Shown: one piece after another, positions 15,001 to 63,339 of the stretch
Layout of the letters: each line of letters begins with the position of its first letter
Numbering within the stretch: position 1 is the stretch's first letter
Assembly (NCBI RefSeq): GCF_004210375.1
Contig: NC_134830.1
Coordinates: 169,515,874-169,579,873, forward strand
From: Tachypleus tridentatus
Lineage: Eukaryota; Arthropoda; Merostomata; Xiphosura; Limulidae
Direction of reading: 5' to 3'
DNA: 64,000 bases
The notes under the pieces: generated by a model
Database searches by the model: none
Told to the model about the DNA's origin: nothing
Seen by the model: only the letters and a program-made list of their open reading frames with translations
Program-made: the position numbers and the translations under genes

Positions 15001-18000
15001 ACAGGCACAAGCAGTGGAAAATCTGAATAAGAGGCAAGGTATGAGTAGCACATGGCTGTTCTTTATAATTCAAAAATGTTAACATATTTGTTCAAAAGAA
15101 ATATTAAGCATACCGTTGTATTACATGTTATGCAAGAATTACTGAGAAGAAAAAAATACTTTCTACCAAAAACAAAAACATACTAACTAGTAAAATAAAC
15201 TGTATTAACTTGCCAGCAGTGAGGACCATAACAATAATAAAGTTCGTAATGAATTCTTGTGATTTTTTTTCCATTTAAAAGTCTAAGGACCGCATCGCAA
15301 TCTTAGGGTTGTGGGTTCGAATCCCTGTCACATCAAACATGCTCGCCCTTTCAGCCGTGGGGGCATTATAATGTTGCGGTCAATCTTACTATTTGTTGGT
15401 AAAAGAGTAGCCCAAGAGTTGGCGGTGGGTGGTGATGACTAGCAGCCTTCCATATAGTCTTACACTGCTAAATTAGGGACGGCTAGCGCAGATAGCCTTC
15501 GTGTAGCTTTGCGCGAAATTAAAAAACAAACAAAATAATTGAAAGTCTAATAATTTGCTAACACATGCTTGCTTTAGAAGTAGAAGTTTAGACATAGCAG
15601 GTTTAAGAAATTGAATAAACTGCAACTATCTGTTGAAAGAAAAGCAGACGGCGTTTCAGTTTCTATACTACACCGAGGCCTCTATGGCTCATTAATTTTC
15701 ACAAGTCCATTATTTTCAAGGCAAGTTAAGATATTAACTCACAGTATTTAAACTCTTATAATTTTACTTTTTGTTCGTTTGTAAATAAGCCAAAAGTTAC
15801 AAAATGGGCTGTCTGTGCTATACCCACCAATGATATCGAAAACCATTTTTAGCTATATAAGCTTTTAGACTTACAGCTTAGTCACTGTGGGGGTTGGGGG
15901 TTAGTTGTTGTTTTCCTTATTTATTCGTTACTGTTAATCAGTTTATCTTGCTGAACATTTCTAAAACAAACAATTTTTATACAATTGTTGTGTTAATAAT
16001 CATGCATTATACAATTACTTTTTGTTAAAATTGATATGTTGCATTTACACAGAGTACAGTTTTATCAAAAGCTGGATAAATCGGTCTTCCATGAAGGAGC
16101 TCTTAATCCGGTAATTGAGGTAATTTCAAATTTTCTATTTATTTTACACTGTTATTAATTTATGATGAGAGCAAACTGTGTACTTAGAGCAAAACTTAAA
16201 ATCAAGGTGACTACCAATGTAAGTAAATATAATTTTGTTTCGTTCACTCTTATAAAGATCGCAAGCCATTGCTGCTGGCGATATTTTCGGTCATTACGTA
16301 ATCGTAATAACATCTCGCAAAGTTCGGTCAGCTTTGATTTGGATTAGTTCCAAATACATATATTAAGCTAACGATTCAAAACAAACTTCCACGTATATAT
16401 CCACCGAATGCAAATCAGTCTTTGAAACACAAGGATAAAAATAAAAGTATTAGCATGTGATATATTTAATACACTAATCGATACTGTTAATGATATTTCA
16501 CGAAACTCAGTTTGCCAGTATATATATAAAAGTACAAAAACAAATAAGGACTAGATTTGTTTTATATTACTGACTTATAGCTAAACATTCATAATTGTAA
16601 ACAATATTTCATGTGTATACGTATGCATGCTTATGTTGATATAATTAACAGCAAGCCAGTAAACTACACACTATCTCTCGTTTTTGTTGACATAAATGCC
16701 TTGCTCCTTTGAATAAGCAACAATTTAAACACTTAGCAGCTATGGGTTACCCTACAGCCACCGACGGTAGTAGTTCTGACGTATATAGCCTGAATGAAGG
16801 ACACACTGCCTGACTTTAGCTTCAAATGGTTTAATATTGGCTAGTTGGGGCAGTGACCTCTTCACTTAGTATTAATGCAACAGATGTAATTTAGTGTAGC
16901 ACAATATAAATGTTGTTTTTGCATATGTAATACAAATTTTGTTCCTGGATGGTATGGGTTATTTCTTGATTGTTTATGTTGTAAAAATACAGAAAATGGC
17001 CATTATACCCTTCAAACTTTGCTTATGTGACCTGAATATTGAAATTTAGAAATTAACGTATTTTCTATGTAAAAACGGGCAAATTTGCATTTTCATTTAC
17101 ATAAGGTCTGAATAAAACAACATATGAATCAACTAGTATTTATACTAAAGTTATACAAAAATTTGCGACTGTGATGTAAATCACTTTCACGTATCAGCCC
17201 CCGAATATAGTTTCCCATCATGTTTTCGTTATACGCTCTTTGGTAGCAGTATTCAATGTCCAGTATATATTGATGGAAAAGCTCGCCTTGCTCCTCTGAG
17301 TATGCTCCCATGTTCTCCTTGAATTTATCAAAATGAGCGTCAAGAATATGGACTTTCAGTGACATCCTGCAGCCCATTTTGCCGTATTTCTTCACCAGAG
17401 CCTCAACCAGTTCCACATAATTTTCGGCCTTGTGATTGCCCAAGAAGCCCCGAATTACTGCGACAAATCTGCTTCAAGTTTGTTTGTTTTTTCCTTCCTA
17501 CTGAGCTTCTTGGGGAATTCTGTGCACTCCAAAATCTTCTTTATTTGTGGTCTAATGAAAATACCAGATTTAACCTTTGCCTCAGACAGCTTGGGGAAGA
17601 AGTCTCGGAGGTACTTGAAGGCTGCAGGCTTCTTATCAAGAGCTGTGACAAATTGTGTCATAAGACCCAATTTTATGTGCAATGGTGGGAACAACACCTT
17701 CTGGAGGTCCACTAGTGGCTCACACTTGACTTTGTGCCTCCTCACAGAGAACTTGATCCGTTGTGGCCAGTGCTTCCTGTTGTAGTGCGCTGCGGTGTCT
17801 CTGCTGTCCCAGAGGCAAATATAAGAGGGAAAATTGGTAAAGCCTCCTTGGAGACTTTACATCAGAAATGCCATCATTTTGAAGTCTCCGATAACCTCCC
17901 AGCTATAGTAATCATACTTCAAGGCTTCTAGCAAGGTCTTGACGCTTTTGTATTCCTCTTTGAGGTGAACCGAAAGATATTTAAATTTTAAAGGGTCTAA

Positions 18001-21000
18001 ATTTTGTATAATATAAAATCTTACTATTCAAGCAAGCAGAAAATTGTCCGTCTTACCTTCTAGAGTTTTTTGAAGTGTTCGCAGGTAAAATGAGGTGCCC
18101 AGGGTTTGTCTTGATACCCGACAGGCATGCCGAAATATGCCTTGTAGGATTCACACATTTTAGTAGATGCTGTAACAGAGTACTTTTTCGCTCTTGTCTT
18201 GATAAATTGACCACATACATAGCAGAATGCGTCTGGATAATGCTTGCAGCTTCTTGATGCCATCTCTGATAAAATCAGATAGGTCTATTTGTTCACTTAG
18301 GCAGCTAGAACTAAACTGAAGTGGTGAGCCCCTGTATATATATCACTATGGAAAGTTATAGAAAATTCTAAAAGGTTCTTGAAAATTGTCGTAAGTTCTA
18401 CAACATTCTAGAAAGTTCTTGAATATTCTTGTAAGTTCGAGAAAATTTTCTATTAGCTATTCAGCACTGAATCTACCTGGAATTTATGGAAAATGGGTAA
18501 ATTTGAAAATTTCGTTACCCAGGTCACAAAAGCAAAGTTTGAAGAGAAAAATAGGTCTTTTCCATTTACTTTAGGCATAAGCAATTGGGAAATAACTTTC
18601 TGCTCAGAAACAAGAAAAAGTAAATATTTTGTTACATAATGATATAGGTCATAATGTTATGTTCCAGTTATGAATAAGTTTGTATTTTTTGTCAGTTCAC
18701 AGTTGTTATTAAAGAAAGAATAATAATATCGCACTAGAAACTCTACAATGGTTATAATTATATAAAAAACAACAACTAGAAAAGTTCATGATTTATCATT
18801 TGAAGCTAATCTTGTTAGTGGTATTGCACAGCTTCTTGTAAACCTATTTTATTCGTAATTCACATAATATAAATATTATATATTAGTTAAGTACGCCCCC
18901 TAGGTGATTAGTGATAAATTTAATGACTTACACTGCAAAACTCAAGGTTTCGATCCCCCGCGGTGAACAGAGTACAGATAGCTAATTATGTAACTTTACA
19001 TTAAGAATATAAGAAGCTAAGTATTGCAGACATAATATATAGTCGTTGAAAATTACAAGAACATTTATTTTTTTGTAAGCACAAAGTTATACAACGGGCA
19101 GTCTGTACTGTGTCCACCACGTGTATCGAAACCTAGTTTTTAGCGTTAAAAGCCTTCAAACTTACTACTGAGCTATTGGGAGGAACACAAGAAATATTGA
19201 TAAGAAATGTTTAATTAATATGCTACTTGTTTATTTTGTTCATCGTTGTAAGAATTAATTTGACATTCATAGTCCCTGATGTACGCCCTCTGGGTAGGCG
19301 AAGGTATATCAGCAACAAATTCCATTTTATTGGATAAATCTCAAAAGAAAGTTCTCAGGGAACTGCTCCACAACATAAGGAAAGGAAGGTTGTCTTTTAT
19401 TGATCTTCGTATTCACACCACTGCCATTATTCTTGCTGTCCTTAAGGTAAGTTTTAATGCTCGAGGGCGACCAATTGCCCGAAATATTTTTCATCAGCTC
19501 ACTTGCCAGGAAAACAATTTGATAAATTCAAAAAGTTTCTACATACAAACACGATAATAGCCCACTGTGTTAAATGAATAATCTAATACATAAGTGTGGG
19601 CTTTTTTATTTTTCAGAATATTCGGAAAAACATTCTAAATGTTCGGTGACCCTGATGCTCATAATGTAAAAAAAACTGTTAAGTTCATAAGGTGGAAAAT
19701 ACATTCTAGTAATGAATATAAAGTAACATTTAAGATTTAAACACCAAAAACTGGTGAAGCTTTAGAAAACACTATACCTAATATTTGCGGTAAAAATTTA
19801 CATAAACTGCGGAATTACCCCCCCCCACACACACACACACACTTTCCTCTTAGTTGAGCGAGTCCTGTTATTCATCAATCCAGTTGCATGGAAAAACAAA
19901 ACACAGTAAGTGGTTATAATACAGTTATTAACTACTTCACTACCATCATAACTGAATCTACAGAATTACAAAGTTTTTCCAATCGTAAAAAATCTCCAGA
20001 TCTACATAGTTTTCAGAAATCATTCCAAACTAAAATCATTCTAATTCGTATAAGACAAATTCATATCATTTCAACGTACCCTAAACTCTTATTTTCAGAT
20101 TGTGTTTTATGTAAAGGTGTTTAGCTTCTTGTGCGATAACATCAGTATTTTTATTATATACATTGGACAATAATAAGTATTTATATGAATCAATGAGTTT
20201 ATTTACTTGCAACGCTAAAATGCGGGGTTTGATTTTTCGAAGTGGACACAGCAGACAATTCAATGTGGTTTTGTTCTTAAAGATTATTCTGTTGTTTATT
20301 TGTTCCCAGTCTTGTCTGAATCATATTTTCAAATACTATTTTGATTTTACTTCATTTGTATTAAGAAATCCTAATATACCCTGTTTATTGTTGATTATGA
20401 AATAGTTGCACGTAAAATACCTTCATTATTAAACTTCTGAGTTGGATAATTATTTATTAATCCCAGTTTCATCGTCAAAACTAAGAGCTCAAAGTCTTGT
20501 AAATATTTCTTTTATTGTAAACCTAACAAAAAGAGATTATACAGTAGCGAATGCATTGTATTACATAGATGAAGGTACTTAATACAGAAATTCCTTAAGT
20601 GTTATATTTTACAATTCGTGTAAGATAAAAATTGCAACATTATAGAATGTGAACATGTATTACTGGCTGATATTTTCATTCCTGTAATTATTGTAATATT
20701 TAAATCAATCAGTACTTAAATAACCAGGGGATAAATTGTTCCGACTCTTGGCGTTCGTTGCCTTCTGCCTGGAATGTCAGTGGATCACAAGACGAAGTTC
20801 CACCTCGTTTAGTATCCAAATTTAACCACTGTTTAATTATTCGTTACAAAATAAAACAGTTGTATAAGTGATTATACATTCTACTTCACCTTGCACATGC
20901 ATTAAAAACATATATTGTGCTTTCTTTACATTATTTGCAGAATTGTAATCACTACTTGGCGTAAAAATACAAGTAGCACTAGCGAGTTAAACTCGGGAAT

Positions 21001-39700: not shown

Positions 39701-42700
39701 ATTCTCAAAAGATACTTCACACCAGTCCATCAACCATCAAGATGATACCAAAAGAAACTTTTAAAGCCCACTAATGGTAGTTTTTACCATATAAAAAATA
39801 AGCACAAAAATCAACTAATTTTTTTTTAAGTAGATATACAATCAACAAGAACAACTGCAAATTACTATATAACAACAGATTCCAAAAGAGCAAGAGAAAA
39901 AAAGAAAAGAAATGAAAGACTGTTTTATCATTATTAAAAAAAACCTGACAGTTTCAGAATTTTCCTGCTATTCAATCTACACAAAGGACCAGCAATATAG
40001 AGGCATCTCTGACTTTGAAGTGAAAACTAGACAGAAGGCAGCTAGTCAACAGCATCTTCCTTCTATTCTTGGGTTACATTTATCTGGCCAAATAATGGAA
40101 CATGGCCATCAATTTTACACTGCAATCTCATACACAAAGAATGAGTAATATTTGGTGTCCAATTAAAATTTATCATAAAATAACTTTCTACCTGAAACCA
40201 TGTTATAATAAATAGACAACAACTGGACATCACCATAACCCTGCTAAACAAAATATTCTACCAGGAAAAGATGATCTACAAATCTTTATGACCTAAAGAC
40301 AAGTGAAGATCATACAAAACACTGCCACTTATTATATTTCTCTTAAATACTCTGGTCTGAAACTTCCAACAGTTATTTTAAGATTACAGGCCATCTTGCA
40401 TAATAGACAATTTTAACACAAGCTGTTTATTATACATTTTTATTTTTTATCCTCTATGTATTTACAACCTAAATCTTTGGTAAAAAAATAACAATAAAAC
40501 TGCAATACAGAAGACTAGATCCTGCAGTACGTTACAATGAAAAGGACCTCAAAATCATACCATACAATTATGATATAATGGGAAACAGCATCAGTTATGA
40601 GTTACAACAATTAATATTTTACTTGTCCTAACTGGAAGTGTGTAGTAATTCAAAATCATTAAATTAAGAATGTTTGGTGCATCTAGTAAAGAGACTTATA
40701 CTTTGGTTATATTGTCTATGGATTTATTTTTAATTTGTTTGTTGTTTTTAATAAAGAGAAGAGAATAAAAACCTAAAAGATGACAACACCTCTCTTAAAA
40801 CTGATCAACTTGATTTTATATATCAGTAGAAAAAGTCAGAAGGAATTCAAAGAATCTAATAAAGGTTAGATAATTACTTGTGTGTAAAGATATAACTCTT
40901 GAAATTTGTTTTATAAACCGGTAACACAAAAACATTAAAAGACCCAAAGTCACAAGGCAATATTATCAAAAATATTTTTAAAGAAAATTTATAACATATG
41001 TGGGAAAAATAATATTTAAAATGCTTATAAAAGGTATAAGAATAATTAATTAACATACCTGCTAAAGGAGGTCCAATAATACTGGCAAACCCTTGAATTA
41101 GAAGAAGTAGACCATAAGCATTGGTAAACTTGTCCAGTGATATTATGTCCACAATAATAATTGAAACCAGAGCATAATTGGCACTAATGGTGAACCCATA
41201 TATTCCAGCAATGCTTGCCATACCCACATAGGTTTTGACCCACGGAATAATAGCTATACTCAAGCCACTCACCGAGATAAATGCACTATACAGAAATGAA
41301 GAATCTATCCACTTTTTATCCCCCCCATATCCTACCATTACCTAGAGGAAAAAAAAAGCTAAAAATAAACCTAATTTCACATGTATGCATTTTAACATTT
41401 AAAAAACATTAAATAATGGCTGTATATCTGTTCTTTGACAAATTGCTCTCTACTTATAAAACTATTTTAGTGATAAAGTGTAATTCAAACCTTATGTTTA
41501 TCATAATTTTCTGGTCTTTCTCAACAGAATGATTAACAGTTTTAATATCCATAGGAAAAGGAGAGATCTTTACACTTTTAAGTGTATTTATTAACAGCTT
41601 ATACAAAATCACACATGAAAGTGTTAGGGGTAGAACACTGAAACAGATTACAACCTTAGATAAATTAATTTTTAAGTTCTTTTATATGTGCCACATGTCC
41701 AATTAAACTACTGTAACTCATTTTTGTAGCACGCACATGGAGTTCATTAAATTACAATATGACCATAAGAAGATAAAGTTATGATGTTAACATTTGCATC
41801 AACCATATTATAACTATATCCTCACATCTAAAAAAAAAAACCACAAAGAATACACAAATCTGCAATGATCCTAACATGACTGCCATTTTAACTGATTTAG
41901 TGATTATCACAATTTTATATCAAAATTCTTAGCAATCAAATTACATGAAAAAAACTAAAATTTACTACAGTCTGTGTTTTTAAAACTTGCATTAGTAACA
42001 TCAACATAAAGTTTAAAAATTACATGTATTTTATAATGCAAGTCTTGTAGCTTCTGGGGTCTAATTACTTAACATTAAGCTATTTTGGGAAAATTTTAAC
42101 AGTTCCAAAAGCAGGTTCAAATATTCCCTGCACTGCAAGTGCATTATAACTTTGGCAGATGGATGAGTGGTAGGATGCTGCTGACTAGCTGTCTTCTTTG
42201 TGGTCAGTAGCAGGGCTAGCAGCAGATGACCTTAATCATTTTGCCACAAATACTATTGACAAATAACAAGTTTAGAAACTACATGCATATTACGTATGTA
42301 CAGAAGTATTATTATTCAGTTTAGGTACACATTGCTGATGTTATATATTCTAAACACTTAAATACTTGAAACATTTAAATGAGTTTTTACATGTTTTTAT
42401 TGTTTTAGTATTATATTTTTTCAGATAATTACAAAGTTGTTTAAAAATTTATATTTGCCTTCTGAGAGTTTCTCTAAAGCAATAACAGAAATTCTGTAAT
42501 GAAAATACAGCAAAATAAAATTAGCCAGGAATGCAATATGTTAACCCTTCGTCTACTAAAAAGAAGAACGTACAATGTGATAATATGCAACTAATATCCA
42601 CTATCTACAACATACAAGTCCTAGTTCAGAACAGAAAATAAGTCTAAATGTAGATACTTACTATTCCAATCATGTTCAGGATACCCAAAATAGATATGAG

Positions 42701-43005: not shown

Positions 43006-46000
43006 AGAAACATTTTGGCCATGTACTGATCTAATAAATGAAGCCACAAGCTGCAAATCTCATTTTAATTTACTGCTTTGCTTTGCCATCAATCGTGTCT
43101 GTAAAACAATGTAAATATTAAAAAAAAAAAAAACATTTACACCATTATGTTTGTTCAGTTTCTTGTTAGTTCTACCTTCCTGCAACAGACTAATCTTATA
43201 GTTGTGGAATCCAAGAATGCTTTCTGGATACACACCTAGCCTTAACATAGAAGGATAAGGTAATTTTTTCTTGAAAACCTTTCATGTATAGTTCTTGTAT
43301 TACTAATCCTGATGAAACTGTAAAGACAAAAATCAATACATAAATACAAGACACTGATGACAACTACTCTTTATTCAGTCAATGACTAACTCTTGTGAGA
43401 AAAAAAAATGTTCAAGTATGAATTATATACAGCTTTAGCTTGAAATATTTATTTTGTTTTGGTTGCTTCATCTGGATATCTGTATTCTTCCTTTTAAAGG
43501 ACTGAATCACAAACACTTAAGGGTTCTAAGTCAGTTTTCAGCTGTGTCTAAGAAAGAAACACATCCACAGAGGTGCTACTAATGAAACGTTTTGTGCATG
43601 TGCCAAGCCATCATAATAACATGAACTGTGCTAGCAGCCTTACAAAATCCCCTACACATAAAAACAAAAAAAAATACACACACACACATATATATCAATC
43701 CTACTTGAGCAGCAGCATCCTGATGAAAGTCTCCAACACAAATTATCATATAATCTCACACATCCTCATTTAGAATAATTATTTATTATGCAAGGAGCAA
43801 CACTTCAATGATTTTTTTATGCTATTTCATTTTATCAAAGGTCTGTTTATATACACGATTTTCCCAATCTTAGGACTACTGTAAACTGTTCTTACTTGTT
43901 GGATCACAGAAATATCCCTCATCAGCTATTACAGAGTCCTGGACTACCTCCAATTTTAGTACACATTGCAATTAGAAATGCAGGTAGTCCACTACCTCAC
44001 AAAACTCCCAACTTGTATTTACATCATCCAATATCATTGCAGTCCACATGGTGCATTTCATGGAGTTATTTTGTCTGGTTGCAATGTTATAGCACTAAGT
44101 AAAGGATTGACTAAACAATTAATTAAAATAATTGTTTGTTTAAAATGTATAGAGGGAACATCAACAGTACAGTGGGATTAAACACAATACTGATTATTAT
44201 GTTATTAGGGATCTTGTAAATAACAAAGTCCATGAACTAACAAGCAATTTGTTGCATAACCAGTTTTGTAAAATGCACTGGAAAAGCTACTGATGGTGAT
44301 ATGAGCCCCACCATTAACTGAAGAGATAATGGTGCCCAGATCAAATTCCACTCTAGTTCAAAGCATACATTTATGTTATTGCTACTTAGTACCATAATTC
44401 ATACATAATACACAACCAGAATTGAGTATGCTGTAACTGTACATGTTCATATACATGAAAGGAAATATTCAATTAAAAAAAAAAAAAAAAAGCAATTGGA
44501 TGAAATTGTAAAAAGGACATTTAAATTTCAAATTTGAATATAATAAAGTTCAAAATTGTAACTCATTTATTGCAGGCCAGGTCATATGGGAATTTTCAGC
44601 AACAACTTAAATTCAAAATATGCCTTTCTCTCTCTCTCTCTTTTCAGATTGTGAGCCAATATCAATCTGTCTGCATTTTGTTATGGGCCAAGGTAAGCTT
44701 CTAAACAGACAAACTAATAAACAGAGTTAATGATACATTAAAAAAACAAAAAAAAAAACTGATTTGTAAAAGTATGTTCATACTTAATTTTCAAAACAAT
44801 AACAGAAGAGATTTTTACCATACATTCACTTCTATGCTGAACATGAAAAATATTATAAGTAACCAATTTATTAGGTTTTAGTTCTAATGCTCCCCCCCCA
44901 TTTCTTTATAAACTTACATGGCTCACTAAAACTGTGTCTGTTTTCCATTCTACTAGAAAAGCAATAGTATGGAAAATTTTCCTTTCATAGTGCAAACATC
45001 AGAAGGAGATGCAGTAACTCTAAGAATACAAATGAAAAACCAAACTCAAAATGTACATTGAGATACACATGTAGGGAGAAAGTGAAGACCACACACACTA
45101 AAATGCCCTATTTTTAGCTGTCAATAGTTTCCTATGAATAAACCTTTATTTATCATTCTAGTGCAACACATTTCAAAGAAGAAAAGAAAGTGTATTTACC
45201 AGTACATGTGGACAATCAACCAGTTTCAAACTAACCAGTTTCAAACTAATTTCATACATGTCATAGTGCACAGAAACATTTTTCTTTTGTTATTTTTGTG
45301 TGAAGTATGTTTTTATTAAATTCTCACATCACTGTGCATCTAACTGCTATTTAATAATTTTAAATTCTTGTAACTGAAATCATTTTTTCTATTTTGTAAT
45401 TACTAACAAAAGAGCCTACATTTGCTATTCAGGCAATGTTTAACTTTAATTACAGAAGTCCTATACTTGGATTTTAACTCTCACCTGTTCTTCTCTGTGT
45501 AAAGTAGTCATACTGTTACGGTAAATATCAGGGCAGCTGGAAGCTCTTAACCTATAGCGATGAATATTCAGCATAGCTCCACGGTAGGTCAAGCTTCCTC
45601 GTTGCAGTCGCAAGTTATTGAGCAAAGCAGAATCTGTTCTTTCCAATATATTCTGTCCCCACCAGGAAACGTGTCTCTGTGACTGATATTTTAATGTCTG
45701 GTTCTGTTTGTGCTCATGTTTTTCCTTTATACTTCCTTTTTCAATGACAACTGGTTTTTGTTTTAAATCTGCTATTGATATTTTTACAATGGTGTCAACT
45801 GTCTGAATTTTGGAGGGCGATAATCTTCTTGGAGTTTCTGCAGGAACAAAATCTGATACCAATGAATTCAAAATGTCAGGAAATTGATCAAGCAGAGTAC
45901 TGAGATGTCCTTTTTCTTTTGTAGATAGCTCATTAATCACTTCTACTGGTACATTTTCATTACTTATGTATGTTGGTAACTGAACTAGGGAACTGCACAA

Positions 46001-46888
46001 CCGATCCCTCAATATTCCATCTACCTTATCTGTTTCATCGCATGAATCTATTCCATCTTCAGAATATCTTTTAGACTCAGTTTCACTCTCAAAATCTAAT
46101 ACCTCCAACTCTTTAGAAGAAATTTCCAAATCCCTCATGAGAGACCCAAAGACCATAATATTCAGAAAGAAACCAGATAAGATCAACAAAGTTCCACGCC
46201 AGTCGTATCGTTCAAGTAACACAATAATCAAAGGGGCAAACACAAAGGTACCTATTCCTGTCCCACACACTGCTAAACCAGTTGCCAAAGCCCTCTTTTT
46301 TTCAAAGTAATAAGCTACAATCACAATAGAAGTTACATAACAAAGTGCTAAGCCAAACCCAGAAATGCTAAAAGTAAGAAAAAGAAACTCCAGAGAATTG
46401 GAAAAAAAACTCATAACAAACCCACTGGTAGCCAACAAAGATCCTGCAATAGCTACTTTCCTGCACCCATATCTATCAGTTAATGCACTAGCTATTGGAC
46501 CCATCAACAAAGGCATACTTAAAAACAGAGAACCAACCCAAGCTGTTTTTGCTTTACTTTCATTAAAATAACTTACAAGGTGAATATAAAGAATACCAAA
46601 TGATAATGATACTCCATCAGCAACCAAGTTAACCATAAATGAAGCAAATACCACCATCCATCCCCATCCACCATCTGGAGGAGTGGGAATACTCTCTGCC
46701 TTAAGATGCAAAGAGGAACTCGATGATGATGATAAACTGTGTGAGCTATTGCTTAATTCTTTCTGAAGAGAAACACCCCTACCAGAGTCAGAATCTTTTA
46801 CAGTTTCCAATTCTTTATTTGATTCATCTAGTTTTATGTTACAGTAAACTTCCAGACATTCATTATTTTCCTTGCACATGTTAGACAT
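33475..46888 (-). CDS. Monocarboxylate transporter-like protein, SLC16 family MFS (4 coding exons, 726 aa)
   Basis: Exons on the - strand: 46888-45485, 42889-42662, 41341-41059 and 33740-33475, totalling 2181 nt with TGA. Residues 1-70 are a serine-rich cytosolic tail. The SLC16 signature PDGGWGW is at 71-77 and YYFEKKRALATGLA lies in the first half. Six membrane segments precede a loop of about 200 charged residues. The second six-segment bundle starts in exon 2, continues with SANYALVSIIIVDIISLDKF, TNAYGLLLLIQGFASIIGPP and LAG, and ends GYLFDSTGSYDATFYVCG. SLC16 proteins move monocarboxylates or related small solutes across the plasma membrane, often with protons. The substrate here cannot be read from sequence. 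All exon phases match and motifs are intact, so the gene looks functional. Confidence 0.93.
34733..38628. mobile_element. Large purine-rich element with inverted ends, in the last intron of the transporter gene
   Basis: TGCAACACATCCTCCTATC with CAGTTGAACCCAA (34736-34790) is inverted at 38575-38628, which reads TTGGGTTCAACTGAATACG and ATAGGAGGGTGTGTTGCA on the + strand. The interior of about 3.8 kb is strongly purine-rich on the + strand. Its open frames (all pyrimidine-strand readings such as 35541-35852 and 36911-37192) resemble no domain and look compositional. It shares a block with the element at 28252. I infer a non-autonomous DNA transposon, but a large decayed repeat of another type is possible. 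Confidence 0.5.
38630..41058. other. Last intron of the transporter gene, 5' part
   Basis: AT-rich intronic DNA. A short perfect hairpin lies at about 39447-39502. No exon or repeat family is recognised. Confidence 0.4.
39447..39502. repeat. Small inverted repeat (hairpin)
   Basis: ATATCAAATCTAACAT and ATGTTAGATTTGATAT are perfect complements separated by about 22 AT-rich bases. A second short palindrome (CATGGTTTGGTTAACCATG) follows near 39524. Confidence 0.7.
41059..41341 (-). CDS. Transporter gene, coding exon 3
   Basis: The acceptor is TTTTTTTCCTCTAG and the donor is GCAG|GTATGT. Codes for VMVGYGGDKKWIDSSFLYSA through to IIGPPLA. The D-K/R-x-W-I-D block after TM8 and the LDKFTNAYGLLLLIQG block are typical of SLC16. 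Ends in phase 1. Confidence 0.93.
42662..42889 (-). CDS. Transporter gene, coding exon 2
   Basis: The acceptor is TCTTCATGTAG and the donor is GGAATA|GTAAGT. Codes for ACGIFQDLKDFLVDMVDLTI through to ISILGILNMIGI, that is the start of the C-terminal transmembrane bundle. Phase 0 at both ends. Confidence 0.92.
42938..43004. repeat. (TA)n(TG)n compound microsatellite
   Basis: About eight TA units followed by about 24 TG units, in the first coding intron of the transporter gene, some 50 bp from the exon 2 acceptor. Confidence 0.95.
43010..45484. other. First coding intron of the transporter gene
   Basis: Mostly AT-rich. It has a run of 17 or more A near 44476 and a CT tract at 44625-44641. A + strand exon-like block at 44648-44692 is discussed under findings. 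No repeat family is recognised. Confidence 0.35.
45485..46888 (-). CDS. Transporter gene, first coding exon
   Basis: ATG at 46888 (MSNMCKENNECLEVY) is the first in-frame ATG after a stop at 46918-46916. The apparent upstream start at 46900 is a TTG. The exon holds the N-terminal tail, the PDGGWGW signature, six membrane segments and the whole central loop. The donor is GAACAG|GTGAGA at 45484-45483. Reading through the donor reaches a stop within eight codons. Confidence 0.93.
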
Positions 46889-47064
46889 TGTAATAACCAA
46901 TATATATTTTTGGTATTATATATTTCTTTAACAGAAAATCCAAATTCTTGGATTAGTAAGGGTTTGGCCATGGGTCTGAGAGAGTAAACTTTATTCCTCA
47001 ATCTAAAATTCTTCATCAATACTTATAAGCCATCAATAGCTTCGAATGCTTTAGGATGTAAAAT
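46889..47064 (-). promoter_or_regulatory. 5' untranslated part of the transporter's coding exon, with an overlapping upstream ORF
   Basis: An acceptor (T-run then ACAG) ends at 47065, so transcribed sequence starts at 47064. An ATG at 47016 opens a 60-codon upstream frame that ends at 46834, beyond the main ATG and out of frame with it. Such an overlapping uORF usually lowers translation of the main frame. An alternative acceptor (GTTAAAG, exon from 46925) would remove this ATG. Confidence 0.5.
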
Positions 47065-56189: not shown

Positions 56190-57311
56190 TTACTTGGGTT
56201 TTTGAATATTAATTTTTATTCTATATTTCTGGCAGTATTCTTCTATATTATTTAGAACAGGTTGGAGGTTTGTTGTTGCAATTGAAAGAGTGGGAGCACT
56301 TTTCCAGACTGCTACATCGTTAGCAAATTGTGATGCAAAACCTAAATTTAGGTCCGACAGTGGCATATTACTCACATACATGATAAATAATATAGGGCTA
56401 ACTACCCCTCCCTGCGGGACTCCTGCCTTGGGTGAAAAGGACCCTGAGTGGGCCCCGTTCACATCAACTTTACACGTTCTGTGTTCCAGGAAGTTGGATA
56501 GCCATCTAATAATTCCCTGGAGTAAAGCCATTTCCGTTAACCGATGGCGTAATCCTTTGTGCCACACCTTGTCAAATGTTTTCTCAACGTCGAGAAAGCA
56601 AGCTACAGTGCATTCGTTTTTGTTGAAGCTGTCTGTAATTGATTCTGTTAGTCTAATTAGGTGATATGTAGTTTGTCTGTATTTTCTAAATCCGTTTTCA
56701 ATTTCGGGTGATTTTGAATTTACTTCTAAATATATAGATAGTCGATTACTAATTGTTCTTTCTAGAATTTTGCCGATACAACTTATTAGGCTAATTGGGC
56801 GGTAGTGGTATGGTTTATTCGCTGGCTTTCCTTCTTTCTGGAACATTAATATTACTGCTTCCTTCCAAGAAACATGGATATATCCAGCTGATAATGATGA
56901 ATTAAATAAGGTTTTTAGGTGCTCATATAATCTCTGACTGCTGTGTTTTAGGAGGATAGCTTGAATACCATCTTTTCCAGGAACTTTGTTTTTTGTGTTT
57001 TTGATAGCTGTTTCTACTTTCGTTACTGTTATATCTTTTATTGGTTGATGAGTACTCCAATCTATTTTCTCTAATTTTATTAATGGGTTTACTGGGAATA
57101 TTGGTGTGTATATGCTTTTGTTCTGTTCAATGAAGTTATTGACTTTATTATAGAAGTATCTGTTCATGTCTGGTTCATGATGTGTTTTGAACGTGTTGTC
57201 TAGGTGGTTTTTAAATATCTCAGCTTTTTCTAGGTTAGTGTATGCTGTTTTTCCATGTAGTTCGAGTGGTGGGTATTCTTTGTTTTTTTCTGTGTTCGTA
57301 TATCTTTTCAA
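56190..57311 (-). pseudogene. Jockey-type reverse transcriptase, catalytic box altered
   Basis: A 373-codon open frame containing RT blocks in order: KVPGKDGIQAILLKH, WKEAVILMFQKEGKPANKPY, YRPISLISCIGKILERTISN, ACFLDVEKTFDKVWHKGL, AGVPQGGVVSPILFIMYV and FASQFANDVAVW. Known RTs of this clade have YADD or FADD at the last site. Here it is FAND, which removes one of the two metal-binding aspartates. The first aspartate block (FLDVEKTFDKVW) is kept. A stop ends the frame before the thumb and C-terminal region, which continues in another frame at 56138-55845. The protein would be inactive. Confidence 0.88.
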
Positions 57312-57949
57312 GTGTGTCCAGAATTGTTTTGGATTTGTTTTGTGATTTAGTTCTGAGCAGAAGGTGTCCCAACTATCTTGTTTTTGTTGTCTGATTTGAT
57401 GTCTTATTTTATTTCTTATAGCATTTATTTGTGTTTTTAGTGTGGGGTTTCTATTTTGTATATACTGTTTGCTTAGTTTTCTTCTGTCTTTTATTAGGTG
57501 TATTATTTCTTGATGTGGTTGCCATAAGTGTGTTGTTGTGAAGTGTTTTTGTTTCGGTATTGAGCTGTTGGCTGGATGTTACAGACACTCAGAGATTATA
57601 TGACTATACGCATCTATACTGACAAAATCGTTTAAAAGAAATGTCAGTTTTGAATACCCTGTAATTAATCTCCCATTGTAAAAAAATGTTATTTTAATTT
57701 TTATCAAATGTAAATGTAATTACCAATTAAAGTAAAAGTAGTAATCCCTCACATACAAAACCGCTAGGCAACGCGTAATTAACTCATATTAGGGTTATTT
57801 TGAACGCATACGTGTGTATTAGAATGGCAATAAATTATTTAAAAAATGTTTGTATACATTTACAAAATATCATGTCACATATTCTACTACGTTATTAGGA
57901 AGAATAAAAAGGCACTATTAGCAAAAATGAATTACTCAAAACATGTATG

Positions 57950-59821: not shown

Positions 59822-62800
59822 CAGGGGCGTAGATCCTGTATTCCACCCATCCCCCCCTACAGTTTGGTCTGTTGAATTGTTTTATTGCATCACAGAGCTA
59901 CAAACTGTGTGTTTGTTATTGTGATTCTTGTGTTCTTACCAATCGAATTACATAATTAGGCCTAGGTGTAGGCTTTTTCAGTAGCCGAAATGTACATCTT
60001 TAATATAGGCGTGCTTCTAAGCTTTTCGATCTAAGCGATAGTTCGTAAGTATCAGTCAGTAGGCCTAAGTAGACATGCAAGGCTTGCAAGCACTATCACA
60101 GAATCTACCTACGTCTTGTATGTAGTGTAAGATTAAGTAAAATTTTCATCACAACAGATTGAACAGAGCATGAAATTCGAAAATATTACTCCCAAGCGTA
60201 AACTCCTGTGATCTAGATCTGGCAGGCCATTTGTAGCTTGTAGCTGCATCAATCGTATGTGAATATTGTGCGGTTTTCCTACGCCATTTGTTCTTATGCA
60301 TGTCTAGCCGGGTTTATTATCGAACGCCTTACTCTCCTTAGCTGCCGAAGTCGCTGACCATAGTGTACGTTTAGTGTACAGTTAACGACAGGTTCGGGCT
60401 GTTCGGATCCAGACGCGCCCCACATCACCCCCCTCCGCTCCCTTTAGTCTGAGCCTCGATTTTACACCAGGGTTTATTAGACTTGTGTTTGTAGCCCTCA
60501 TAAATCCATGAAATTTCAGATTATCACCGCCCTTTAATAAAGTGCTGGTGCTTTATGGTAAAAGAACAATATATTCTCTTATCATAGATAGTAAAAATAT
60601 TGTATTTTCTTGTATAATTAGAACACAAAAGGAGTGATTTCAATGGCCTGAAGCCTTTACTCGAATTGTATTGCTAGTTTTTGTTTAGATGTTTTTATTT
60701 AAAAGACATGCTTATACACATTATATCACAACGTGTTTGCCTTTCGATGAGCTTCAACAGGAATATAATATATTTGTGATTGTTTAAGTATTTTTCGAGA
60801 AACTTGCAATTACTTGTGTTGTAACTAGCACACATTATTGTCCCAGTGATGCCCAGGTGGTCAGTCGCCTCGGTAGTCACTGTGTGGTTCGCACGTTCGA
60901 CATTGTACAGTTCAATACTACTTCCATTCTGTTCTATCTTCGTTTATTGTACATTAGAGTTTTTCAATAAAGACTATTATAGCCTGTTGAGTCATCCGTG
61001 AAACAGATTCAATGATGACAAGCAAGCGTTTGAAACTTTTCGATATTAGACAGTTCTGCAAGCCATTTACTGGTACTACAAGTGACAATGCAGATGCAGA
61101 TAATTCAACAACATCAAGCAAAGGAATAGAAACTTGCCATACAGAGGAAATACCATGTTCATCAGAGGACGAGTCTGAAAATGCTTATGCAACTATTGCA
61201 CATCATGAACCACCAGATAGTTGTGAAACAAGTTTGTGCAGCAATGAAAAATCTGACACTCCAAAGATACAGTGTGGAAAGCCATATCATCCACACGCAC
61301 AACTAATACCATGACAGAAAGCAAAATCTCAACTTTCAGGGCAAGTGGTTTGATGAGTTCCCATGGCTGCACTTCGACAATCAGACTCAAAAAGTCATAT
61401 GCTTTTATTGAGCCAAGGCGGAAAATAGAGGCCTTTTTACAGGGAAATTGGAGAGGCCAGTGGAGTATACCTTCATATCCACTGGATTTTGCAACTGAAA
61501 AAAGCCAAAACAGAAATTCAACAAACACCAATCCTCCTCTCAGCACAGATTTGCTATATCTCCAGGAAGTTCACTTGATGTAACTCCAGTGACTGTCCAG
61601 CAACATGATGGAAAAAAGCAGCAGCAGAAAGAATGCAAAAGAAGTCTAACCAAAATATTCAGAAGTTTACGTTTCTTACTGCGTCAAGGTTTAGCATTAT
61701 GTGGACATACTGATATGGAGGGGAACTTCCTGCAGTTAATGATGCTCCTGGAAGAGGAAAATCCTGAGTTGATGGCCTACGTGTCAAAGAAAACCACATT
61801 CACATCATCCCAGGCTCAGAATGAAATAATGGAGATGTTCAGCCATCAAATACTAAGGAACATAGCACACAAAGTGCAGCAAAGTAAAATCTTTGCATTA
61901 ATGGTTGATGGCACTCAAGATGTTACAGGTCCTGAACAGGAAGCAATATGCGTATGATACGTAGATGAGAACCTTGACATCCATGAGAGATTTCTTGGTT
62001 TGTAGTGTTTCCAATACAACTAGTGAAACAACATCCTTGACTATACTTGATGTACTGACTGGACTCAATTTACCACTGTCAGGATTAAGAGCACAAACTT
62101 ATGATGGGGCCACTGACATGAGTGGTGTGTACAGTGGATGTCAGGCAAAAATAAAAGAGAAGCAACCACCAGCTTTGTTTTTTCACTGCGGAGTACACAA
62201 GGCTAATTTAATAATGCAACATGCAGTTGAAGCTTGTGAATGTGTTTGAGATTCTATCCAATGGGTACATGAACTTGGTGTCTTGCTTCAGAGGTCAGGC
62301 AAATACAAGACAATCTTTGAAAATGTTATATCATAAGACAGCCACAATGGTCCAGTTAAATTCATCCGCCCACTGTGTCCAACATGCTGGTTGTTCCACC
62401 CATCTGCAATTACATGTGCTAATGATCACTACAGGGACATTGTTGATTTTTTATCTGAATTAGCAAATGAAAAATCAGATGTAGTAGTGAAAGCACGAGG
62501 TCTGCTGGACAGATGTGACAAATGAAAGACAGTTTTAGGATTGTTGACGGCTCAGCATCCATTAGCTGCATTAGAGGAAATAAACCGTGCATTCCAAGCA
62601 AAATCAGCGACAGTATCTGGCATGATTGAAACATCTGCAGTGACAGTTGAGCAATTGCAGGTATTGCGAACAGAGGAAAATTACAAGATATTTGATGAAG
62701 CTGAGAAAAAGGTAACTTCCCTAGGTCTGGTGCCTGTTGAACTACCATGCATTCATAGACCCCTCAGAAGGATCATAGGTGATTGCTCAGCACACCATTC

Positions 62801-63339
62801 TGCAACAACTAGAGATTACCACAGAAGCCAAAATTTTGAATTTGTGGACACAGTCATAGAACATCTGACCACTAGATTCAATGCAGATAACAATGTCTTG
62901 GGGCAATGCCTGGCACTTGAGAACATGATCACCTCTGGTAAGATTGACAACTCGGTTATAAACTTCTATCCTGAAATCTCTGCACAACGGCTCGAGTTTC
63001 AGTTGTCCATGTTCAAAGGAACAACAAAAGCAGTATCTCTGAAAGGTGAGAAGGATGCTTACTGTAAAATGCATGAAACAAGCCAGCAGATGTTTAGTGA
63101 AGTGTTTCTTCTCATGAAAATTTTGCTTGTACGTCCAGTATCCAGCTGCAAATGTGAACGCAGCTTTCTGCATTAAGACGGTTGAAGACGTGGTTAAGGT
63201 CAACCATATCTCAGTGCTGCCTCAACCATGTGGCAGTTTGTCACACTCACAAAGGTTGACAAGATAAATATGGAAGAGTTTATGAAAGAATTCATAAACA
63301 GATCATCGCAAAGGATGTCTATGTTTGAGAACATGTAGA
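59822..63339 (+). mobile_element. hAT-superfamily transposon (left end and gene; right end not located)
   Basis: CAGGGGCGTAGATCCTG at 59822-59838 looks like the terminal repeat of hAT elements of the ZMYM1-like group, which commonly begin CAGxGGCGTAG. The transposase pseudogene lies downstream (61012-63339). No inverted copy of this terminus is visible before the window ends. About 1.2 kb of leader separates end and gene, with a short tRNA-like stretch near 60845. Confidence 0.45.
61012..63339 (+). pseudogene. hAT transposase (ZMYM1-like, TTF zinc finger + dimerisation domain), decayed
   Basis: 61012-61314 gives an acidic, serine-rich N-terminus (MMTSKRLKLFDIRQFCKPF). A TTF-type zinc finger follows in another frame: WFDEFPWLHFDNQTQKVICF (61340-61400), where the second cysteine codon has become TGA. 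The catalytic region has LRQGLALCGHTDMEGNFLQL, IFALMVDGTQDVTG and, after frameshifts, LRAQTYDGATDMSG. The C-terminal dimerisation block at 63060-63340 reads MKILLVRPVSSCKCERSF, then after a stop LSAASTMWQFVTL and MEEFMKEFINRSSQRMSMFE. hAT transposases cut and paste elements with short TIRs. This copy has at least five frame breaks and is inactive. Its order of domains is complete. Confidence 0.88.

Follow-up and report, generated by a model that had tools for sequence, protein, structure and literature searches.

The window analysed here, a stretch of 64,000 nucleotides (64 kb) of the Tachypleus tridentatus genome, contains a monocarboxylate-transporter-like host gene and a copy of a DNA transposon that carries a long array of GAA/TTC heat-shock elements (HSEs) next to the start of its transposase. 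The coordinates of these features are collected in the table below. The protein encoded by the longest host-like exon, at 45464-46915, shares 91% identity with a protein of Limulus polyphemus and 99% with an unnamed entry, followed among named entries by proteins of scorpions, ticks and spiders (56-58% identity). Other mobile elements are recognizable at 56190-57578 and 61499-63176, where a reverse-transcriptase-like (LINE) frame and hAT-like transposase fragments were named by reading.

Table. Features of the transposon copy and of the host gene in the 64-kb window
Feature	Position	Strand	Basis
DNA transposon copy, 1721 bp, ends CATTATG .. CATATGC, internally deleted, coding frame broken by stops	16921..18641	-	end alignment of copies; TSD script; translation
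5' terminal inverted repeat, ~155 bp	18487..18641	-	5' consensus vs reverse-complemented 3' ends, three copies
Upstream heat-shock trimer, consensus TTCcaGAAcaTTC perfect, decayed in window copy	18479..18491	-	copy consensus
GAA/TTC heat-shock-element array, 20 units, 13 perfect	18351..18450	-	register scan and TRF
TATA box TATATATA, 25 nt ahead of predicted start A	18335..18342	-	sequence; geometry from consensus
Initiator-like TCAGTT, predicted start A18317	18314..18319	-	read from sequence alone
First transposase coding exon MASRSCK.., ATG 18263, 54 nt past predicted start	18066..18263	-	translation; protein relatives
Transposase catalytic-region fragment; one Cys of C(2)C motif lost here, CYLC in other copies	17458..17856	-	translation
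C-terminal transposase fragment, HILDAH and EEQGE..H motifs	17132..17473	-	translation
3' terminal inverted repeat, inner edge approximate	16921..17075	-	same alignment of terminal inverted repeats
Monocarboxylate-transporter-like gene, two exons (40.9-46.9 kb)	40874-41341 and 45464-46915	-	protein similarity

We refer to the transposon as the MASRSCK family, after the opening of its first coding exon. Copies of the family end sharply, with CACTATGTAAC at the 5' end and GTTACATAGTG at the 3' end in the end alignment. The set used for ends and flanking duplications (TSD) comprised 30 of 40 copies, the other 10 having been set aside because they were duplicates or had an end that was not recognised; 24 of the 30 begin with CAC, 21 end with GTG, and 20 have identical 3-bp duplications, mostly TTA or TAA, where 11.6 are expected from swapped ends. 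At other lengths, identical duplications were found in 2/30 copies at 2 bp (5.4 expected) and in 0/30 at 4 or 5 bp. The window copy itself neither begins with CAC nor ends with GTG, and its flanks carry no matching 3-bp duplication. As judged from three copies, the terminal inverted repeats (TIRs) pair over the outer ~155 bp only; a lenient alignment ran on through the array, and a stricter one stopped before it. The transposase motifs CYLC and HILDAH, present in pieces of several copies, correspond to the C(2)C and H(3-4)H motifs expected between the second D and the final E of a DDE RNase H transposase, and residues D315, C334, C337, H491, H496 and E510/E513 are invariant across 79 relatives, the catalytic roles being assigned by inspection in both cases. 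Going by its termini, 3-bp TSD and DDE motifs, the family is an EnSpm/CACTA-like DNA transposon.

Two other assignments were considered and rejected. Transib and ProtoRAG elements have a 5-bp TSD, which none of the 30 copies shows. Helitrons are rolling-circle elements with a Rep-helicase and with neither TIRs nor TSD, and the family has TIRs, a TSD and a relative with a RAG1 fold, which separates it from the HSF-bound Helitrons. The latter relative concerns an intact 525-aa related transposase frame nested in one MASRSCK copy (L013:2661-4235); this frame lacks a ~40-aa stretch of its relatives, has 2478 relatives and no Pfam family, and the RAG1/Transib fold was found in a close relative of it. 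Pfam returned no family for protein P0001 and, for the window exons, nothing beyond sub-threshold matches at chance level, and scans of viral contig and genome contig collections yielded no relatives. The transposase query (window 17132-18263) shares 74% identity with a Myxocyprinus asiaticus (fish) protein and 65% with one from a mantis shrimp, matches that suggest horizontal spread of the family.

The array consists of GAA and TTC units in strict alternation and a 5-bp register, with one mismatch in each of the 7 imperfect units. Here the earlier note on this DNA, which had described 20 units without a slip, 13 perfect and 7 one base off, was exact in coordinates, register and count; its statement that the TATA box, TCAGTT initiator and ATG follow in promoter order on the minus strand was likewise confirmed by reading. 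When scored against the nGAAn/nTTCn pattern, which may not be the host's own HSE preference, the array matches at 53/60 letters, and no other 20-unit register in the window exceeds 34/60. In 20 windows simulated with a first-order Markov model the maximum was 33/60. TRF reports periods of 10, 20 and 40 for 18351-18450. If an HSE is defined by at least three nGAAn/nTTCn units that alternate without leaving the 5-bp register, the array qualifies as one.

Built from 34 de-duplicated copies, one of them the window's, the consensus comes closer to the ideal pattern than the window copy, with 16/20 perfect units as against 13/20. On the gene strand all ten of its GAA units and six of its TTC units are perfect, the other four being one base off, and a further perfect TTCnnGAAnnTTC trimer is located 31 bp upstream of the array. 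The promoter layout of the consensus places 8 bp between the array end and the TATA box, 25 nt between the TATA box and the initiator A, and 54 nt between this A and the ATG. The array sits inward of the 5' TIR; aligned alone to the 3' ends of three copies, it scored 17, 20 and 18 against shuffled means of 17.6-18.4, i.e. no 3' counterpart was detected in these copies. Since it is one-sided and lies at the promoter, the array fits, as an arrangement of sequence, transcription control better than end recognition by the transposase.

Presence of the array among family copies was assessed in two samples. The first used a 383-bp query from the array region, which gave 1900 first-look candidates in the 2.17-Gb genome, of which 40 were scored. 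The scored copies besides the window's own are 89-92% identical to the query, and all 40 (39 fetched copies and the window) have the array; within these elements, 6-unit matches reach 15-17/18 at best inside the array and 12-15/18 outside it. Because a query that holds the array selects for it, the second sample was drawn with coding DNA (window 17161-17800), giving 3998 candidates, of which 40 were scored and the best 20 of the 39 non-window matches were read. The 5' TIR is retained in 18 of these 20 copies (89 to 150 of the first 150 bases matched), and every one of the 18, among which two pairs look like mutual duplicates (L056/L064 and L058/L066), has an in-register array near it, with 5 to at least 31 units. 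The remaining two, one without a 5' end (L052) and one with the leader only (L057), have no array and score 2 and 1.8. Copies with the array score at least 5, and the maximum is 4 among 357 flank pieces and 3 among 1000 shuffles. These controls are 270 bp long; the stretches scanned in the second sample measure 1.5-1.95 kb, the length over which the two copies without an array gave their scores.

Given its occurrence in both the array-selected and the coding-selected copies, the array is, on the evidence of these sequences, an ancestral trait of the family whose length changes, visibly by 40-bp blocks in L056. The possibility raised in the earlier note that other family copies might lack the array is contradicted by its presence in 40/40 copies of the first sample and in 18/18 copies with a 5' end of the second. 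The note's broader reading, a transposon-borne HSE promoter spreading into host introns, is partly supported: it is borne out for an array placed as a promoter element and common to the copies, including those sampled by coding DNA, and finds no support as to intron placement, as the host coding exons seen do not put the window copy in an intron. Repeated 40-bp blocks have enlarged the arrays of L056 (at least 31 units) and L064 (at least 23 units), and these enlarged arrays could possibly serve as a series for HSF-site dosage.

The EnSpm/CACTA-like family bears a 20-unit HSE array directly upstream of its transposase TATA box, an arrangement that likely constitutes an HSF-driven promoter. Stress-activated HSF trimers would bind cooperatively along the array, and bound HSF would fire the adjacent TATA/initiator promoter. 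The supply of transposase would thereby be tied to stress, whether heat or proteotoxic, or else to the activity of HSF in germ cells, and every new copy would leave a ready-made cluster of HSF sites in the host genome. It is from the sequence that we infer HSF binding, heat induction, and effects on transposition and host genes. One variant, which overlaps this reading and which we regard as rather unlikely, is a real HSF promoter serving HSF activity in germ cells or embryos and not heat, so that expression would fall in cells whose new insertions are inherited. HSFs act in the gametogenesis of several animals, and one paper reportedly concerns HSF5 in meiosis. The variant draws on the same sequence evidence as the heat-driven promoter, and sequence cannot separate the two inputs, although long arrays would seem to suit strong stress induction.

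A second explanation is that the array is a 10/40-bp minisatellite grown by slippage near a promoter, its HSE appearance being derived from a chance GAA..TTC seed with no role for HSF. The 40-bp tandem duplication included in the window array and the variation in length among copies (5 to at least 31 units) are in line with such an origin, and so is the pattern of decay. Across copies, 111/2040 core cells and 58/1360 spacer cells are changed (gaps counted in the totals), which corresponds over non-gap cells to 5.5% for the core and 4.3% for the spacer, with 4.7% for the 5' flank and 4.2% for the promoter. The earlier note had expected the GAA/TTC positions to be more conserved than the spacers across copies and regarded equal conservation of the spacers as the mark of a plain satellite; taken as worded, this comparison goes against its heat-shock reading. 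The copies look like neutral fossils, however, because the 5' flank and the promoter decay at about the rate of the array, and under neutral decay the comparison of core and spacer across copies cannot discriminate and is silent on selection in the once-active source. The comparison between units favours the cores: among the ten decamers of the consensus, the six core positions agree at 9.33/10 and the four spacer positions at 6.75/10, a contrast equalled by 6/210 labelings when the columns are relabelled. Also at odds with slippage alone are the constant distance to the TATA box and the one-sided placement of the array.

Further evidence against a chance minisatellite comes from the genome-wide distribution of perfect 6-unit HSEs (GAANNTTC x3 in register), which occur at 218 sites, compared with 0 sites for a reversed-pattern control and an expectation of 0.09 from the window base composition. 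For 50 of the 218 sites, all on contigs C1-C3 and some of them overlapping within one array, the sequences were compared: 26 are of the MASRSCK-array type, 23 resemble a second repeat, and 1 is neither, so that 49/50 of the listed sites resemble two repeat families. All 26 MASRSCK-type sites differ from the MASRSCK consensus array at no more than 3 of 28 letters, and the 23 differ from one other sequence at no more than 2; by chance, 7.4% of random perfect sites are expected to fall within the first cut (4 mismatches) and 0.1% within the second. Three of the listed sites were read in context, one of which (L082) is a MASRSCK copy and the other two (L083, C1:55586555-55586855; L084, C1:65451080-65451380) are near-identical 301-bp examples of the second repeat. 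Their main array has 9 or 8 units, 8 or 7 of them perfect, and ~20 bp upstream of it lies a smaller one with 3 or 4 perfect units; a TATA box follows the main array, and ~40 bp further on is an ATG that opens MISLDEAVHLL... We take this opening to be reminiscent of piggyBac transposases; Pfam has no match for the 26-aa start. The order of array, TATA box and ATG is the same as in the MASRSCK family, and the spacer sequence is different. Common descent of the two core promoters was considered on the basis of 12/20 identical letters after the TATA box (P ~0.03 by random pairs) and rejected as too weak, and the two families are apparently unrelated. That an apparently unrelated repeat with other spacers has the same layout, together with the excess of perfect sites over the reversed pattern, makes the minisatellite explanation improbable.

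Plant CACTA elements have subterminal repeats as accessory transposase sites, and the EnSpm/CACTA-like nature of the element allows the array to be viewed as such a repeat for its own transposase with an incidental match to HSF sites, a view rendered very improbable by the missing 3' counterpart in the three copies aligned and by the related transposon nested in L013, which has a TATA-like box (by eye) and no array, its best 6-unit upstream match being 11/18.

Extending the HSF-driven promoter to both families, we tentatively propose, with slightly less than even confidence, that two unrelated DNA transposon families of the horseshoe crab each gained a promoter of the hsp style, made up of a long HSE array, a TATA box and a short leader, and together supply nearly all long perfect HSF sites of the genome; heat stress would then awaken them and also be read out via HSF docking sites, thousands in number, that transposons carry. 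Should the other 168 sites be like the 50 that were compared, almost every long perfect HSE in this 2.2-Gb genome would be of repeat origin. If the second family is a transposon, the same promoter design would have originated, or been taken over, on two occasions in this genome, and the gain of hsp-type promoters would represent a repeated transposon strategy. For the MASRSCK family, the HSF-driven promoter predicts that transcription rises when the animal's own stress response is on.

HSF-driven transposons are already known from Helitrons and ONSEN, and the novelty here would lie in the class of element, in the host, and in an array positioned as a transposase promoter. Our literature searches found no report of a horseshoe-crab or CACTA heat-shock transposon. 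The EnSpm/CACTA group (CMCT clade) has CAC..GTG termini and a 3-bp TSD, and its transposase combines a RAG1-like fold with the motifs C(2)C and H(4)H (PMC12730594). The MASRSCK family is similar in termini, 3-bp TSD and transposase motifs; it differs from the group in having a protein family without a Pfam match and a candidate heat-shock promoter, a feature not mentioned in the passages of PMC12730594 consulted. In Caenorhabditis, as reported in PMC6927752, high-density HSE clusters of C. elegans lie within Helitrons, HSF-1 binds the HSE clusters, the full-length element is transcribed upon heat, and nearby genes are up-regulated. The MASRSCK family shares with these elements the combination of a DNA transposon and clustered HSEs; in contrast to rolling-circle elements of nematodes supported by ChIP and RNA data, it is a chelicerate TIR element with a RAG1-fold relative and an array set against the TATA box, and is known here from sequence alone. 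ONSEN, an LTR retrotransposon of Arabidopsis, has fewer HSE units than the MASRSCK array. Its internal HSEs drive heat transcription through HSFA2 (PMC8376061). Both elements thus contain HSEs within their own sequence, with the difference that those of ONSEN are in the LTR of a plant retrotransposon, whereas the MASRSCK family is a DNA transposon in which the HSEs would themselves form the transposase promoter. With such a promoter, a RAG1-fold-related TIR element of a chelicerate would join nematode Helitrons and plant retrotransposons among the HSF-driven transposons.
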